NCBI GenBank assembly: GCA_016190205.1
Contig: JACPQZ010000035.1
Location: 1-47,974, forward strand
Length of the DNA: 47,974 nucleotides
Source of the DNA: Candidatus Omnitrophota bacterium
GTDB taxonomy: Bacteria; Omnitrophota; JACPQZ01
Direction of reading: 5' to 3'
In this document: piece by piece, positions 26,585 through 47,974 of the stretch
How positions within the stretch are numbered: the stretch's first letter is position 1
How the letters are laid out: each line of letters opens with the position of its first letter
Notes under the pieces: generated by a model
What the model saw: the letters and a program-made list of their open reading frames with translations, nothing else
Databases searched by the model: none
What the model was told of the DNA's origin: nothing
Translations under genes and position numbers: made by a program

Positions 26585-26814
26585 ATCTCAAGATAAAGAA
26601 ACCAGATACCAGTTACCAGAAACCAGAAGAAACCAGAGACCAGACACCAGATGAAATCCGAAATTCGAAATCCGAAATCCGAAGAATTTCGAAGCCCGAA
26701 ATTCGAAACGGTTGGTTTTGAATTTCGAATTTCGTGCTTTAGATTTGTTCGTGCTTCGAATTTCGAGGTTCGGATTTGAACACTGTCGAATCACGAATCA
26801 CGAATCACGATCCG
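26573..26814 (+). repeat. Element D: nested heptamer inverted repeats, no gene
   Basis: It starts at the stop of the ATPase gene. Layers from outside in: CGTGAAT x2 (26573-26586) facing CGAATCA x3 (26787-26807); ACCAGNN units (26601-26652); and GAAATCC/GAAATTC units (26653-26700), which pair with AATTTCG-rich sequence at 26721-26778. The ACCAG left arm is nearly identical to that of element E (one difference in about 60 bases), but the matching right ACCAG arm is missing. No protein is encoded. It ends 20 bp before the next gene. Confidence 0.8.
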
Positions 26815-26834
26815 GGCTGATAGGAGAAGTTAAA

Positions 26835-27131
26835 GTGAGCAAAGTCCAGGACATGTTGTACAGGGCGCTAAACGAAAGATACGGAAAGATGTATGGCGTG
26901 TCGAATGACGTGGAAGTTCTGCGCAGTGAAATCAGCGAGATGGAGCGGCGCCTCAAGAAGACCCGGAACGAGCTCGCGCAAGAAGAGTGGGTCCGCAGCC
27001 AGTTGGAGCGCGAGGCCGAAAACCTTATGCGCGGGTTGAGTCAGCAGGAAATCAGCGCTCGGGAATCGGGATTCGGGAAACGGGACACGCAGTACGCAGA
27101 ACGCAGTACGCAGTACGACCGCGCTCGCTAG
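26835..27131 (+). CDS. Coiled-coil protein of unknown function with repeat-derived tail
   Basis: 98 residues from GTG 26835 (AGGAG eight bases upstream). Residues 1-25 (VQDMLYRALNERYGKMYG) look like a short helix pair. About 26-70 are a charged coiled-coil (EISEMERRLKKTRNELAQEEWVRSQLEREAENL). The last 24 or so residues are coded by a 7-bp tandem array (27060-27115) and are probably not an ancestral part. No family is recognised. Its place between the ATPase and the tyrosine kinase suggests an adaptor role, which is inference. The longer upstream frame is read from element D and is rejected. Confidence 0.6.
   Translation: MSKVQDMLYRALNERYGKMYGVSNDVEVLRSEISEMERRLKKTRNELAQEEWVRSQLEREAENLMRGLSQQEISARESGFGKRDTQYAERSTQYDRAR
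27060..27115 (+). repeat. 7-bp tandem array, CGGGANN then CGCAGTA units
   Basis: Eight units in unbroken 7-bp register: CGGGAAT, CGGGATT, CGGGAAA, CGGGACA, CGCAGTA, CGCAGAA, CGCAGTA, CGCAGTA. The array forms the 3' end of the coiled-coil gene and ends 15 bp before its stop. Confidence 0.9.
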
Positions 27132-27140
27132 GAGGAAGTA

Positions 27141-27938
27141 ATGAGTTACATCAGCCAGTTGATGCAGAGGAAGTATCGGGAGAAGCAGGTCGTCCAAAAG
27201 GCTTCCACCCGCGAGGGCCCGCGCAAGAGAGTTTCTGTGAACGTGGAGCCGCATATCGTCACCCTCACCCAGCCCAGCTCGCCGGCGGCAGAAGAATACC
27301 GCATCCTGCGTACGACCTTGAGCAGGCTGGGCGCCAAGAAACCGTTAAAGACCGTTATGATCACGAGCGCCGGCGCGCAGGAGGGAAAGACGCTGACCAG
27401 CGTGAATCTGGCGGTGGCGATGGCGCAGGGCACAGGTCAGAGAATTCTGCTCGCGGATTGCGACTTAAGACGCGGCCGCGTGCATGAACTTTTAGGCGTT
27501 GAGCCGGATGAAGGACTGGGCGATGTCCTCCTGAATGGCACGGACCTCTCGGCCGCTCTTTACGACACGAGCGTGGAAAACCTTACCGTTCTTCCCTGCG
27601 GGCGCTACCCGGCGAACCCTGCGGAGCTTTTGGGTTCGCAAAAGATGAACGGCCTCATCGCGCAGTTAAAACTTCAGTTCAGCCTGTGTATCTTTGACAC
27701 GCCGCCGGCCCTGGCGCTGACGGACGCCGCGGTCTTGGCGTCCCAGGCGGACGGAGTCATCCTGGTCGTGCAGGCGGGAAAGACCACCTGTGAGGCAGTC
27801 GAGGAGGCGGGCCGCGTGCTCACCCAGGCCCACGCGAATGTGCTGGGGTTTATCTTGGTTGGTGTAGAGGAACCGGGCCCAGGCTATGCGTACCGGTATC
27901 ACCGGCAGGCGAGCAAGGCCGATGGTCGTGCATCGTGA
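27141..27938 (+). CDS. CpsD/CapB-type bacterial tyrosine kinase
   Basis: 265 residues. EEYRILRTTL opens the domain. Walker A is SAGAQEGKTLTS with Lys83, Walker A' is LLADCDLRRG (about 104-113), and Walker B is CIFDTPPAL (about 183-191). This is the cytoplasmic BY-kinase that controls chain length with the Wzz-type protein at 24307. The C-terminus has only a small Tyr group (YAYRYH) instead of a long Tyr-rich tail. AGGAGG lies five bases before the ATG. Its last codons run into element E. Separate kinase and chain-length genes are typical of XrtA-type loci. Confidence 0.88.
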   Translation: MSYISQLMQRKYREKQVVQKASTREGPRKRVSVNVEPHIVTLTQPSSPAAEEYRILRTTLSRLGAKKPLKTVMITSAGAQEGKTLTSVNLAVAMAQGTGQRILLADCDLRRGRVHELLGVEPDEGLGDVLLNGTDLSAALYDTSVENLTVLPCGRYPANPAELLGSQKMNGLIAQLKLQFSLCIFDTPPALALTDAAVLASQADGVILVVQAGKTTCEAVEEAGRVLTQAHANVLGFILVGVEEPGPGYAYRYHRQASKADGRAS

Positions 27939-27941
27939 TTC

Positions 27942-28210
27942 GTGGATCGCAAGAAAAGAAACCAGATACCAGTTACCAGAAACCAGAAGAAACCAGATAC
28001 CAGACACCAGATGAAATCCGAAATTCGAATATCGAAATTTGAAACAAATCCGAAGCCCGCAACCCGTAAGCAAGATTTGATATGTTTGAACCTCGGTCAT
28101 CCGAATTTGTTACGTGCTTCTAATTTCGAGCTTCGAATTTTCTGTTTTTTTCTGGTATCTGGTTTCTGGAATCTTCTGGTTACTGGTTTCTGGTTACTGG
28201 TTTCTATAAG
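27942..28210 (+). repeat. Element E: ACCAG inverted-repeat element, no gene
   Basis: It starts 3 bp after the kinase stop with GTGGATCGCAAG. The left arm of ACCAGNN heptamers (27961-28012) and the right arm of CTGGTNN heptamers (28151-28205) align as inverted repeats without gaps, including a shared AAGA phase break at the same place in each arm. The interior holds GAAATTCG-type repeats. The 97-codon frame across it is a translation of the repeats. It ends just before the ribosome binding site of the next gene. Confidence 0.85.
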
Positions 28211-38967: not shown

Positions 38968-39211
38968 GATACCAGATACCAGTAACCAGTTACCAGAAGA
39001 AACCAGATACCAGAAACCAGAAAATAGAGGGGAAAGATTACCAGTTTGATTTTGAGAACTTGAAAGTCTATCAAAAGGCACTTGGGTTTATCGATCGCAC
39101 TAAGGGCTCTCATCCTATGATTCTGGTTTCTTTTTCTACGGTTCTGGTATCTGGTATCTCTAATCTTCTGGTATCTGGTAACTGGTTTCTGGTTTCTCTT
39201 TCGGAGTATCT
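38964..39211 (+). repeat. Element A: internally deleted copy of the IVP element
   Basis: The left arm (38966-39020) and right arm (39143-39196) of ACCAG/CTGGT heptamers are inverted repeats that align without gaps. The first 137 bp match element B (40209 on) with about four differences. Then it jumps to CTAAGGGCTCT, matching the 3' end of the B gene and its right arm. So A is B with about 250-300 bp removed from the middle. It occupies the whole space between asnB and the next gene. Confidence 0.88.
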
Positions 39212-39215
39212 ATGA
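38964..39215 (+). pseudogene. Truncated four-helix-bundle (IVP) gene
   Basis: An open frame of 83 codons starts at ATG 38964 on the asnB stop (ATGA). Residues 1-46 match the protein of element B (RYQIPVTSYQKKPDTR, then DFENLKVYQKALGFIDR). The helices with the conserved NIAEG motif are deleted, and the rest is read from the right repeat arm (VLVSGISNLLVSGNW). It is therefore a remnant, not a working gene. Confidence 0.8.
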
Positions 39216-39228
39216 GGATTTTAGGCAT

Positions 39229-40212
39229 ATGAACTGCCTTGTGACCGGAGCGACGGGTTTTACGGGAGGGCATGTAGCCAGGGAACTCATCCAGAGGGGG
39301 CACTCGGTGAGGGCGCTTGTGCGCGATCCAAGAAAAGCCGCTGGGCTCACGGCCATCGGAGTGGAGTGCGTTCCGGGCGATCTGCGCGATCCCTTGGCGG
39401 TCAACCAGGCGGTGCGGGGATGCGCTTGGGTCTTTCACATCGCCGCGCTATATCGCGAGGCCGGGCTTCCGGATTCGGTGTACTACGACGTCAACGTGGC
39501 GGGGACGCGAAATGTCCTTAAGGCCGCCGAGCGTGACAAGCATGTGCGGAGGTTCGTACACTGCAGCACCGTGGGGGTCCACGGCGATATCGCCCATCCT
39601 CCGGCCGGCGAGGAAGCGCCCTTTAACCCCGGTGATATTTATCAGAAGACGAAACTCGAAGCCGAGCAAGTCGCTATGCAGTTTTTTCAGAACGGGGTCT
39701 GCGGAACCGTATTTCGCCCGGCGGGGATCTACGGACCTGGCGACACGCGCTTTCTCAAGCTCTTCCGCACGATTTATAAGGGACAATTCCGTATGTTCGG
39801 AACCGGCAAGACGCTGTATCACCTGACCTACATAGATGACCTGGTGGGTGGAATTCTTACCTTGGCGGAGCATCCGGCGGCCCCGGGCCGCGTGTACATT
39901 CTGGGAGGGGCGCGGTCTACGACACTCGAAGAGCTCGTCAGGTCGATCGCGGAGGCGCTCGGCGTGCGTTCTCCCAAAGGACACTTGCCCCTTTGGCCGC
40001 TCAAGGCCGCGGCCACTGTCTGCGAGGCGGTCTCCAAGCGTTTGCATATCGAGCCGCTTCTTTATCCGCGCCGCGTGGACTTCTTTTACAAGGACCGGGC
40101 CTTCGATATCACGCGGGCGCGCACCGAGATTGGGTATGAGCCCAAAGTTGATCTCGCCACTGGTCTCAAACGAACAGCGGAGTGGTATCGGACGCAAGGG
40201 CTATTGCGATGA
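39229..40212 (+). CDS. Extended SDR, NAD-dependent epimerase/dehydratase-like
   Basis: 327 residues. The dinucleotide loop is VTGATGFTGGHVARELI; the catalytic region DIYQKTKLEAEQ has the Tyr and Lys; IYGPGDTRFLKLFR follows. It belongs to the dihydroflavonol-reductase/HpnA-like branch rather than GalE. Substrate unknown. The ATG overlaps the stop of a 6-codon frame (ATGAGGATTTTAGGCATA, 39212-39229) that is a copy of the start of the carbamoyltransferase gene at 40699, so translation is probably coupled. The gene is sandwiched between elements A and B. Confidence 0.8.
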   Translation: MNCLVTGATGFTGGHVARELIQRGHSVRALVRDPRKAAGLTAIGVECVPGDLRDPLAVNQAVRGCAWVFHIAALYREAGLPDSVYYDVNVAGTRNVLKAAERDKHVRRFVHCSTVGVHGDIAHPPAGEEAPFNPGDIYQKTKLEAEQVAMQFFQNGVCGTVFRPAGIYGPGDTRFLKLFRTIYKGQFRMFGTGKTLYHLTYIDDLVGGILTLAEHPAAPGRVYILGGARSTTLEELVRSIAEALGVRSPKGHLPLWPLKAAATVCEAVSKRLHIEPLLYPRRVDFFYKDRAFDITRARTEIGYEPKVDLATGLKRTAEWYRTQGLLR

Positions 40213-40628
40213 GATACCAGATACCAGTAACCAGTTACCAGAAGAAACCAGATACCAGAGGCCAGAAAATAGAGGGGAAAGATTACCAGTTTGACTTTGA
40301 GAACTTGAAAGTCTATCAAAAGGCACTTGGGTATATCGATCGCATTTTCATACTGCTTAAAGCACTGCCAACAGAGTATCGGTATTCGATAGGTGATAAT
40401 CTCTTGCGCGCCGCTATGTCAATCTCAAACAACATTGCCGAGGGTAACGACAAAGTATCCAGGAAAGAACGCACTCGTTATTTTAGGACTTCCTCAGATT
40501 CCACACGGGAGTGCGTGTCGGTGATGAATGTTTTAATGAGGCAGCAGCTCATCGACCATGAAGCATATGTCACTCTTCGCAATGATGCCAGAGAAATCAC
40601 AAGCATGTTAAGGGCTCTTATTCTTTAA
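40209..40628 (+). CDS. 23S rRNA intervening-sequence protein family (four-helix bundle)
   Basis: 139 residues from ATG 40209, which overlaps the preceding stop (ATGA). The first 29 residues or so are translated from the repeat arm (RYQIPVTSYQKKPDTRGQ). The conserved family core follows: DFENLKVYQKALGYIDRIF, LLRAAMSISNNIAEGNDKVSRKERTRYF, and a C-terminal helix REITSMLRALIL. The family (S23/IVP) is encoded in intervening sequences of some 23S rRNA genes, and its fold is shared with the Avd accessory protein of diversity-generating retroelements. Here neither an rRNA gene nor a reverse transcriptase is nearby. Biochemical function is unknown. Confidence 0.85.
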   Translation: MRYQIPVTSYQKKPDTRGQKIEGKDYQFDFENLKVYQKALGYIDRIFILLKALPTEYRYSIGDNLLRAAMSISNNIAEGNDKVSRKERTRYFRTSSDSTRECVSVMNVLMRQQLIDHEAYVTLRNDAREITSMLRALIL

Positions 40629-40698
40629 TTCTGGTATCTGGTATCTGTAATCTTCTGGTTTCTGGTAACTGGTTTCTGGTTTCTTCTTCGGAGTATTT
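40209..40698 (+). repeat. Element B: full IVP-containing inverted-repeat element
   Basis: 490 bp. The left arm (about 40211-40265) and right arm (40631-40687) are built from ACCAGNN heptamers and align as inverted repeats without gaps; about 39 of 47 positions agree by eye. Between them lies an intact four-helix-bundle gene whose 5' end is formed by the left arm. A transcript could fold into a long stem with the gene in the loop. The element fits exactly between the SDR stop and the carbamoyltransferase ribosome binding site. Confidence 0.88.
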
Positions 40699-42423
40699 AT
40701 GAGGATTTTAGGCATACAAGACGGGGTATCCGCAGGGGCTGCGATTCTGGACGACGGCAAGATCGTTGCGGTCGTGAGCGAGGAGCGGCTTGACCGAAGG
40801 AAGATGTCCACAGGCTTTCCGGAGCACTCGATCCGGGAGTGCCTTAAGCTGGCGGGCTTAAGGGCGGGGGACGTCGACCGGATTGCAGTCGCAAACCGCA
40901 CGGGGCTTTTCAAGCGGCCGGCCTTCGAGTATCCCGGCTGGTTCAGCAAACGCGAGGACCCGCGCAAGAAAATACTGTTCGGGGCCGCGGCACTTGTCTC
41001 GCGCCGGCTCCTGGGATATGACTGGGTTCGGCGCGCTGCCTATCGCTTGCGCGCGGGGCTTTTCGCGGGCCGGAGGCCCAAGCTTTTCGAAGTACTGCGC
41101 GGTGAATTCGGGTTCACGTGCCCTATCGAGTTTGTGGATCACCACCTGGCCCATGCCGCGTCGGCCTACTTTACGAGCGGCCTGGACGACGCCCTGGTAC
41201 TCACTCTCGACGGAGCGGGGGATGAGTGCTCGTCGCACGTTTATGCCGTGTGCCAAGGTTCCTTTGAGCTGAAGCATAAGGTGGACAGCTTCAATTCCCT
41301 GGGAAATTACTATGGATATGTCACGCATCTCTTGGGCTTTAAGGCCCACCGGCATGAAGGAAAGATCACGGGGCTTGCGGCTTACGGAAAGCCCTCGTTT
41401 CAGGATAGGTTGCGCCGACTCATCCGCTTTCGCGAGGGGACCATCGAAAACACGGGGCGGGTGTTCAATCAGTCGGCCTTGGCCGCGATCCGCCGCCTGC
41501 TGCCGAAGGATTATAAAAATGAAGACGTGGCGGCGAGCATACAGGGGCTTCTGGAAGAGATTGCCCTCGCTTACATCCGGCACTGGGTGGTCGAGACGGG
41601 CCTCAAAGACCTGGCCCTGGCCGGCGGGGTCTTCGCGAACGTCAAGCTCAATCAAAGGATTCATGAACTTGAGTGCGTGCGTACGCTCTTCATCCATCCC
41701 GGCATGGGAGATGAGGGGCTTGCCCTGGGGGCGGCCCTTATGGTGGTGGACCGCCTGGCGCGCGAAGCAGGAACGCGCGTCAAACCGGAGAGGCTGAAGG
41801 ATGTCTACTTCGGTCCCGCGTATACGAACAGGGAGATTGAAAAGGCCGTTCGGGATGCGGGTGTCCAGGCGGAGTACGCGCCTGACATTGAGGATCGCAT
41901 TGCCAAGCTTCTGGCTCAAGGCAAGGTGGTGGCGCGCTTTGCGGGCCGTATGGAATACGGGCCGCGCGCGCTGGGGAACCGCTCCGTGCTGTACCAGGCC
42001 ACCGATCCGACCGTAAACGACTGGCTCAATAAAAGATTCAACCGCACTGAATTCATGCCCTTCGCGCCGGTCACGCTCGATGAGCACGCAGAGAAGTGCT
42101 ACGTGAACCTGGACGGCAGCCGCTATCCGGCGCGCTTCATGACGATCACCTTTGACTGCACGGATTGGATGAAGGAGCACTGCCCGGCCGTAGTGCATGT
42201 GGACGGTACGGCCCGGCCGCAGATCATTACGCGCGAATCCAATCCGAGCTACTACCGCATCTTGGAGCGCTATTACGAGCTCACGGGGCTTCCTTCGATT
42301 ATCAATACGAGCTTTAACATGCACGAGGAGCCCATCGTCTGCTCGCCCCAGGACGCGATCCGGTCGTTTCAGCAGGGCAGCCTGGACTACCTGGCGTTGG
42401 AGAATTGGCTGGTTTCGCAATGA
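40699..42423 (+). CDS. NodU/CmcH-family carbamoyltransferase
   Basis: 574 residues. The N-terminal Kae1-like domain opens MRILGIQDGVSAGAAILDDG, with VDHHLAHAASAY and LTLDGAGD as metal and nucleotide motifs and HPGMGDEGLALGAAL further on. The C-terminal carbamoyltransferase domain has RMEYGPRALGNRSVL and NTSFNMHEEPIVCS. It transfers a carbamoyl group from carbamoyl phosphate, through carbamoyl-AMP, to a sugar hydroxyl. In this locus it probably decorates the polysaccharide or its lipid-linked precursor. SD CGGAG lies just upstream, at the edge of element B. Confidence 0.9.
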   Translation: MRILGIQDGVSAGAAILDDGKIVAVVSEERLDRRKMSTGFPEHSIRECLKLAGLRAGDVDRIAVANRTGLFKRPAFEYPGWFSKREDPRKKILFGAAALVSRRLLGYDWVRRAAYRLRAGLFAGRRPKLFEVLRGEFGFTCPIEFVDHHLAHAASAYFTSGLDDALVLTLDGAGDECSSHVYAVCQGSFELKHKVDSFNSLGNYYGYVTHLLGFKAHRHEGKITGLAAYGKPSFQDRLRRLIRFREGTIENTGRVFNQSALAAIRRLLPKDYKNEDVAASIQGLLEEIALAYIRHWVVETGLKDLALAGGVFANVKLNQRIHELECVRTLFIHPGMGDEGLALGAALMVVDRLAREAGTRVKPERLKDVYFGPAYTNREIEKAVRDAGVQAEYAPDIEDRIAKLLAQGKVVARFAGRMEYGPRALGNRSVLYQATDPTVNDWLNKRFNRTEFMPFAPVTLDEHAEKCYVNLDGSRYPARFMTITFDCTDWMKEHCPAVVHVDGTARPQIITRESNPSYYRILERYYELTGLPSIINTSFNMHEEPIVCSPQDAIRSFQQGSLDYLALENWLVSQ

Positions 42424-47833: not shown

Positions 47834-47974
47834 GCACGGATCGCAAAAAAAGATACCAGATACCAGTAACCAGTTACCAGAAGAAACCAGATACCAGAGG
47901 CCAGAAAATAGAGGGGAAAGATTACCAGTTTGACTTTGAGAACTTGAAAGTCTATCAAAAGGCACTTGGGTATA
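47830..47974 (+). CDS. Four-helix-bundle (IVP) gene of element C, cut by window end
   Basis: A GTG at 47830 overlaps the stop of the GT39 gene (GTGA) and opens a frame that runs to the window edge: a short start STDRKK, then RYQIPVTSYQKKPDTR, DFENLKVYQKALGY. From 47851 to 47974 the DNA is the same as element B, by eye without differences. The right arm and the conserved core lie beyond the window. The leading GGATCGCAA is shared with element E. Confidence 0.75.
   Translation, partial: MSTDRKKRYQIPVTSYQKKPDTRGQKIEGKDYQFDFENLKVYQKALGY

Follow-up and report, generated by a model that had tools for sequence, protein, structure and literature searches.

The window analysed here is a 47,974-nt stretch of DNA (contig JACPQZ010000035.1) from a Candidatus Omnitrophota bacterium, in which a gene for an intervening-sequence protein (IVP) is lodged between two protein-coding genes of an operon (Table 1). 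The open reading frame (ORF) extends from the ATG at 40209 to the stop codon at 40626–40628 and matches PF05635 with an E value of 4e-24 in a profile search; in the sequence ATGA, its start codon overlaps the stop of the preceding gene. The two inverted ACCAGNN arms are 56 nt each and 82% complementary, which confirms the intact IVP gene between inverted arms described in a sequence-only reading of this DNA, and the shared phase break (AGA/AAGA) reported there is real in both arms. That reading also placed the ORF in the loop of a hairpin: the gene is indeed flanked by the arms, but it begins upstream of the left arm and runs through it, with about the first 20 IVP codons lying in the arm. On the other side, about 14 nt separate the end of the right arm from the next ATG (40699). 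RNA folding supports the proposed stem, as the 601-nt RNA reaches −189.9 kcal/mol, compared with −160.2 (s.d. 5.5) in 20 shuffles, none of which folds as well (z = −5.4). The element is set exactly between the two operon genes, in keeping with the residence in a protein operon that had been claimed for it.

Table 1 Features of the IVP element, its neighbours and related copies in the window
Feature	Position	Strand	Basis
IVP gene (23S_rRNA_IVP, PF05635), 139 aa	40209..40628	+	ORF and profile match, structure model
Left arm: four ACCAGNN heptamers, AGA phase break, three further units	40212..40267	+	Sequence
Right arm: inverted heptamers immediately 3′ of the IVP stop codon	40629..40684	+	
NAD-dependent epimerase-like ORF, upstream in the operon, with its stop codon directly at the element	39229..40212	+	ORF; name by sequence resemblance
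Downstream operon gene: NodU-like carbamoyltransferase ORF	40699..42423	+	ORF; name by sequence resemblance
Second element copy: IVP gene largely deleted, first 46 codons 93% identical	38971..39193	+	Internal-deletion derivative
Third copy: left arm and IVP start, remainder cut off by the contig end	47855..47974	+	
IVP-less ACCAG hairpin with a loop of CGAAATN-type heptamers	27961..28201	+	
Lone ACCAG arm	26601..26650	+	

The AlphaFold model of the window IVP has pLDDT values above 90 over most of a four-helix bundle and predicts disorder for residues 1 to 23, most of which the left arm encodes. Its fold matches are 2gsc (TM-score 0.92 by target length), 2rld and the Avd structure 4dwl. The two IVP relatives 2gsc and 2rld contain five chains each, and 2gsc is described as a homopentamer (PMC4990558).

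Further copies of the element, implied by the earlier suggestion that it had moved, are present in the genome. ACCAG arms are dispersed through its 1.65 Mb, and the pattern ACCAGNNACCAGNNACCAG occurs 93+85 times, compared with 3+6 times for a reversed control pattern. In the extracted regions and the window, 23 full ACCAG arm pairs were recognized, along with many more arms; they are mostly gene-less, and the loops of most of the 23 hairpins are non-coding and 10–200 nt long. The window itself holds five ACCAG sites, one of them an internally deleted copy. Because one such deletion step is visible in the window (38971–39193), the gene-less hairpins are plausibly deletion derivatives of IVP elements. 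Between this deleted copy and the start of the epimerase-like gene, positions 39212–39229 read ATGAGGATTTTAGGCATA, the 18 nt with which the NodU-like gene begins at 40699; this suggests joint duplication of the element and its 3′ flank. The end of contig C15 is probably the other (3′) half of the third copy at 47855. The window element is one copy of a dispersed mobile hairpin element, and its arms are not special to that copy.

Other heptamer families (CGAAATN, CGTGAAT, GCGGGAA, ACGCAGT, GTCCCAC and ACCAGCG) are nested inside or around the ACCAG hairpins (window positions 26601–28201 and loci L068–L106). At the same loci, ACCAG arms are either 50 or 51 nt long, with a 3- or 4-nt phase break; 13 of the 23 hairpins combine the two lengths, and two 51-nt arms never occur together, which may point to distinct element ends.

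We surveyed 133 distinct IVP loci, from Omnitrophota and a scan of a genome collection, with 135 other ORFs from these loci as controls; the sample leans towards well-conserved IVPs and the statistics ignore phylogeny. Tandem arrays occur in 158 of 266 IVP flanks and in 32 of 270 control flanks, with a period of 7 or 14 in 122 of the 158 and periods of 8 and 9 next commonest. The inverted similarity of the two flanks has a median of 17 for IVP genes and 9 for controls, and is at least 18 in 59/133 and 0/135, respectively. The arms are inverted rather than direct: in 72 of 75 cases, the unit of the 5′ arm recurs as its reverse complement in the 3′ arm. The arms are conserved as inverted repeats in relatives, though they consist of other heptamers. 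With these arms and the further copies in the window genome, the outcomes that the sequence-only reading had named as refuting it did not materialize. Heptamer arrays accompany 62/84 Omnitrophota and 13/41 Bacteroidota IVP genes, and a further 14/41 in the latter phylum have 8- or 9-mers. Arrays of 7- or 8-nt units accompany 15 of the 16 plasmid-borne IVPs, which come from Cyanobacteria, Gemmatimonadota and Azospirillum, and most of 11 IVPs on viral contigs, several of them near-identical, share the same design. The architecture of an IVP gene between inverted tandem arrays thus extends across phyla. The match between the two sides is poorer at three plasmid loci (L297, L299 and L304).

The heptamer sequence differs between elements and tracks IVP identity (Mantel r = 0.27; best permutation, 0.11). 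The similarity of units disappears below about 50% IVP protein identity, and above that level co-inheritance alone could explain part of the correlation. The unit length varies as well. Units of 8 nt were observed at L161, L143, L303, L305 and L406, and one of these loci, L161, falls in the subclade of the window protein itself, which is incompatible with a strict 7-nt ruler. The modal number of units per arm is five, which lies close to the detection limit, below which shorter arrays escape; four units are almost as common.

Heptamer arrays are also abundant genome-wide. In 724 kb of the window genome, there are 247 period-7 arrays, compared with 11 for the remaining periods between 4 and 12 combined, and 152 of the 247 are intergenic, compared with 26 at random placement. 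Across 20 IVP-positive Omnitrophota genomes, selected for high IVP counts, and 20 IVP-negative ones, the density of period-7 arrays is 9.7 and 1.1 per 100 kb, respectively (p = 0.002), whereas that of arrays with other periods is 3.3 and 4.6. The densest accumulation among the sampled relatives, 21 heptamer arrays in 31 kb, lies on contigs C1 and C2 of genome G153 (L360 and L400).

A three-gene module on Nostoc plasmids is found both with and without the element. An IVP element occupies one junction of the module in pNsp_a and pC052_D, a different IVP element occupies the next junction in pNsp_c, and pNsp_b, pC052_A and pC052_B carry the same module with neither. Sites occupied and empty at two positions demonstrate mobility, and both neighbouring genes are kept at these insertions. 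Moreover, copies from Nostoc, Aulosira and Trichormus/Scytonema have only the ~420-bp element in common and are flanked by unrelated DNA at three sites, so one element resides in unrelated contexts. The cyanobacterial IVPs have dN/dS values of 0.10–0.14 at dS of 0.9–1.2, and their arms are about 90% identical, as judged by eye on the alignment; this combination of purifying selection and arm identity indicates that protein and arms are kept together. Of the hallmarks of a classical MITE of a DNA transposon, namely terminal inverted repeats and a target site duplication, the inverted arms are present, and candidate target duplications of 5 bp (TTCTA) and 3 bp (ATG) are both ambiguous. The cas6–cas4 loci of Anabaena sp. 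90 and Dolichospermum were considered as an empty-site pair and rejected, as other DNA fills the gap.

The elements are oriented with respect to transcription. Both neighbours lie on the same strand as the IVP gene in 69 of 76 cases, and in none is the gene antisense to both; the corresponding figures for a small-ORF control are 53 of 76 and 3 (p = 0.002 for 69/76 versus 53/76). Among plasmid IVPs, 3 of 16 are antisense. The sense placement suggests dependence on host transcription and is compatible with movement via RNA as well.

Our best model, to which we assign a probability of about 0.68, is a selfish mobile hairpin element with an IVP ring that recognizes its tandem units. The element measures about 400–480 bp and consists of an IVP gene with an inverted tandem array on either side, each of some five units of 7 nt (in some cases 8 or 9 nt); every element lineage has its own repeat unit. 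It inserts between operon genes, mostly in sense, so that a host promoter can express the IVP and both neighbours stay intact, and copies that lose the gene would persist as short hairpins. The architecture, the mobility, the purifying selection on IVP, the conservation of the arms, the excess of heptamer arrays in IVP-bearing genomes and the sense bias are seen in the data; the role of the protein is an inference. The solved relatives of IVP are five-subunit rings, and its distant relative Avd works in an RNA–protein complex. By this model, the pentameric IVP ring would bind the tandem units in single-stranded form, one per subunit, in a TRAP-like manner; bound IVP would mark its own hairpin for mobilization, acting as a mobility factor, and would serve IVP-less copies in trans. 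The 23S rRNA intervening sequences (IVSs) would be copies that landed in rRNA. Against the model count the many heptamer families of the window genome for which no resident IVP was found, and the IVP genes that lack arrays by our threshold (18/84 in Omnitrophota and 14/41 in Bacteroidota). We also know of no catalytic residues in IVP, which likewise counts against the model. More tentatively, and with the odds somewhat against it, we suggest that these elements represent a categorically new class among bacterial mobile elements. Its pentameric ring, which has no known nuclease or transposase domain, would recognize lineage-specific heptamers and mobilize hairpins within transcripts, in sense orientation and possibly via RNA; the long-unexplained heptameric repeats of bacteria would originate in this way, with 23S IVSs as one outcome.

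The sequence-only reading had suggested an IVS-like RNA-processing role, in which RNase III cuts the co-transcribed stem, splits the exopolysaccharide mRNA and sets relative expression, the IVP gene being a relic. The folding of the arms into a long stem, the sense bias in operons and the excision of 23S IVSs by RNase III (PMC4990558) all agree with such a role. However, arms of the same hairpin are no more complementary (37.1 of 45 positions) than arms of different hairpins (39.5 of 45) among the 23 ACCAG hairpins, giving no sign that pairing itself is selected, and the IVP is under purifying selection where this is measurable. The same design also recurs in unrelated operons, which makes an operon-specific role unnecessary. 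Mobility and repeat recognition explain more than splitting of the mRNA by RNase III, which may occur; as an account of the element, we consider RNA processing unlikely. We think it somewhat less likely still that a host Y1 (RAYT-like) or other transposase moves the hairpins with IVP as mere cargo. The window genome does encode four Y1_Tnp genes (L319–L322), and dispersed palindromes are similar to REP/REPIN families (PMC3116915), but inverted heptamer arms are absent from all four Y1 loci, array density tracks IVP presence in genomes grouped by IVP alone, and the gene inside the arms across phyla is IVP rather than Y1.

The remaining explanations are far less probable. Heptameric simple sequence repeats (SSRs) are over-represented in many bacteria (PMC4692102) and the unit sequences are very diverse, as would befit ordinary repeats grown by slippage that accompany IVP genes through a tolerance of intergenic gaps; this is hard to reconcile with the inversion of arrays around the gene, the enrichment of period 7 only and the movement of the whole element as a unit. 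Equally improbable, in our estimation, is that IVP is a host accessory protein, such as a CRISPR-associated or diversity-generating retroelement (DGR) factor, whose expression the arms regulate. Its gene positions between cas6 and cas4 and between cas10 and cmr3, its inclusion among cas-locus genes (PMC3936711) and its fold similarity to Avd favour that idea, but neighbouring genes are unrelated between loci, a closely related Dolichospermum cas6–cas4 operon lacks IVP, and the window genome (assembly about 93% complete) has no reverse transcriptase (RVT_1) match.

IVP elements lie inside CRISPR operons of cyanobacterial plasmids (cas6/cas4 and cas10/cmr3; L301, L303 and L304), and the cas6–IVP–cas4 and cas10–IVP–cmr3 arrangements match cas-locus IVPs listed in PMC3936711. 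There, the IVP gene may have been mistaken for a cas gene; more generally, an IVP gene in a CRISPR or other operon may have inserted there and need not be a functional partner. These elements look like a widespread kind of mobile element, of which the known rRNA-gene insertions would be a special case. The kind is apparently undescribed: in the open-access literature, we found no paper linking IVP with heptamer arms in general, and the novelty lies in this general rule rather than in the single window copy. The proposed rule, by which each subunit of a ring protein would bind one repeat, joins three questions, namely the function of the IVP/S23 protein, the origin of sporadic rRNA intervening sequences and the abundance of heptamers in some bacteria.

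Among known systems, the closest parallel is with the 23S rRNA IVSs of Leptospira and Coxiella, which are sporadic, are thought to spread horizontally and carry an IVP/S23p ORF, in sense with the transcript, in the loop of a stem formed by inverted repeats. The Coxiella IVS has heptameric repeats (GACAGAT) directly before the S23p ORF, and RNase III cuts at the first repeat (PMC4990558). The IVS-like nature first proposed for the window element is borne out by the shared protein family, the inverted-repeat stem around the insert, the S23p/IVP ORF in the loop, the sense orientation and these Coxiella heptamers. Unlike 23S rRNA IVSs, the present elements lie between protein genes of operons, the window copy included, have many gene-less copies and carry a lineage-specific heptamer. 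The earlier suggestion that the window element had moved out of 23S rRNA finds no support here: no 23S rRNA gene was found in the window genome's assembly (about 93% complete), and no rRNA near 20 related IVP genes.

RAYT–REPIN systems (PMC3116915) likewise comprise dispersed, gene-less palindromic repeats between genes, tied to one gene. In the present elements, that gene encodes a four-helix-bundle IVP rather than an HUH tyrosine transposase and the arms are tandem heptamers; membership was rejected, as none of the four Y1 genes lies in inverted heptamer arms. The heptameric intergenic repeats of Xanthomonas, Nostoc and cyanobacteria (SSRs and STRRs) resemble the window arrays in their tandem 7-nt units and intergenic position. 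An IVP gene, XCC0516, is present in Xanthomonas. The Xanthomonas GGGAATC repeats form 70–75 inverted pairs, often convergent, and the Nostoc heptamer is GGGGATT (PMC4692102). Open-access papers on the Xanthomonas, Nostoc and STRR heptamers describe no IVP link, whereas the Nostoc plasmids analysed here carry IVP within such arms. Avd of DGRs (4dwl and 8ub7), which is part of an RNA–protein complex, shares the IVP fold (TM-score 0.86 by target length) but only 8% identity, and the element was not assigned to DGRs, as no reverse transcriptase partner was found in the roughly 93% complete assembly. The TRAP ring of Bacillus, which functions in attenuation, binds one RNA repeat per subunit. Its fold is unrelated to that of IVP, and it is by analogy only that we propose the same principle, one repeat per subunit of a ring, for the IVP pentamer and its tandem units.
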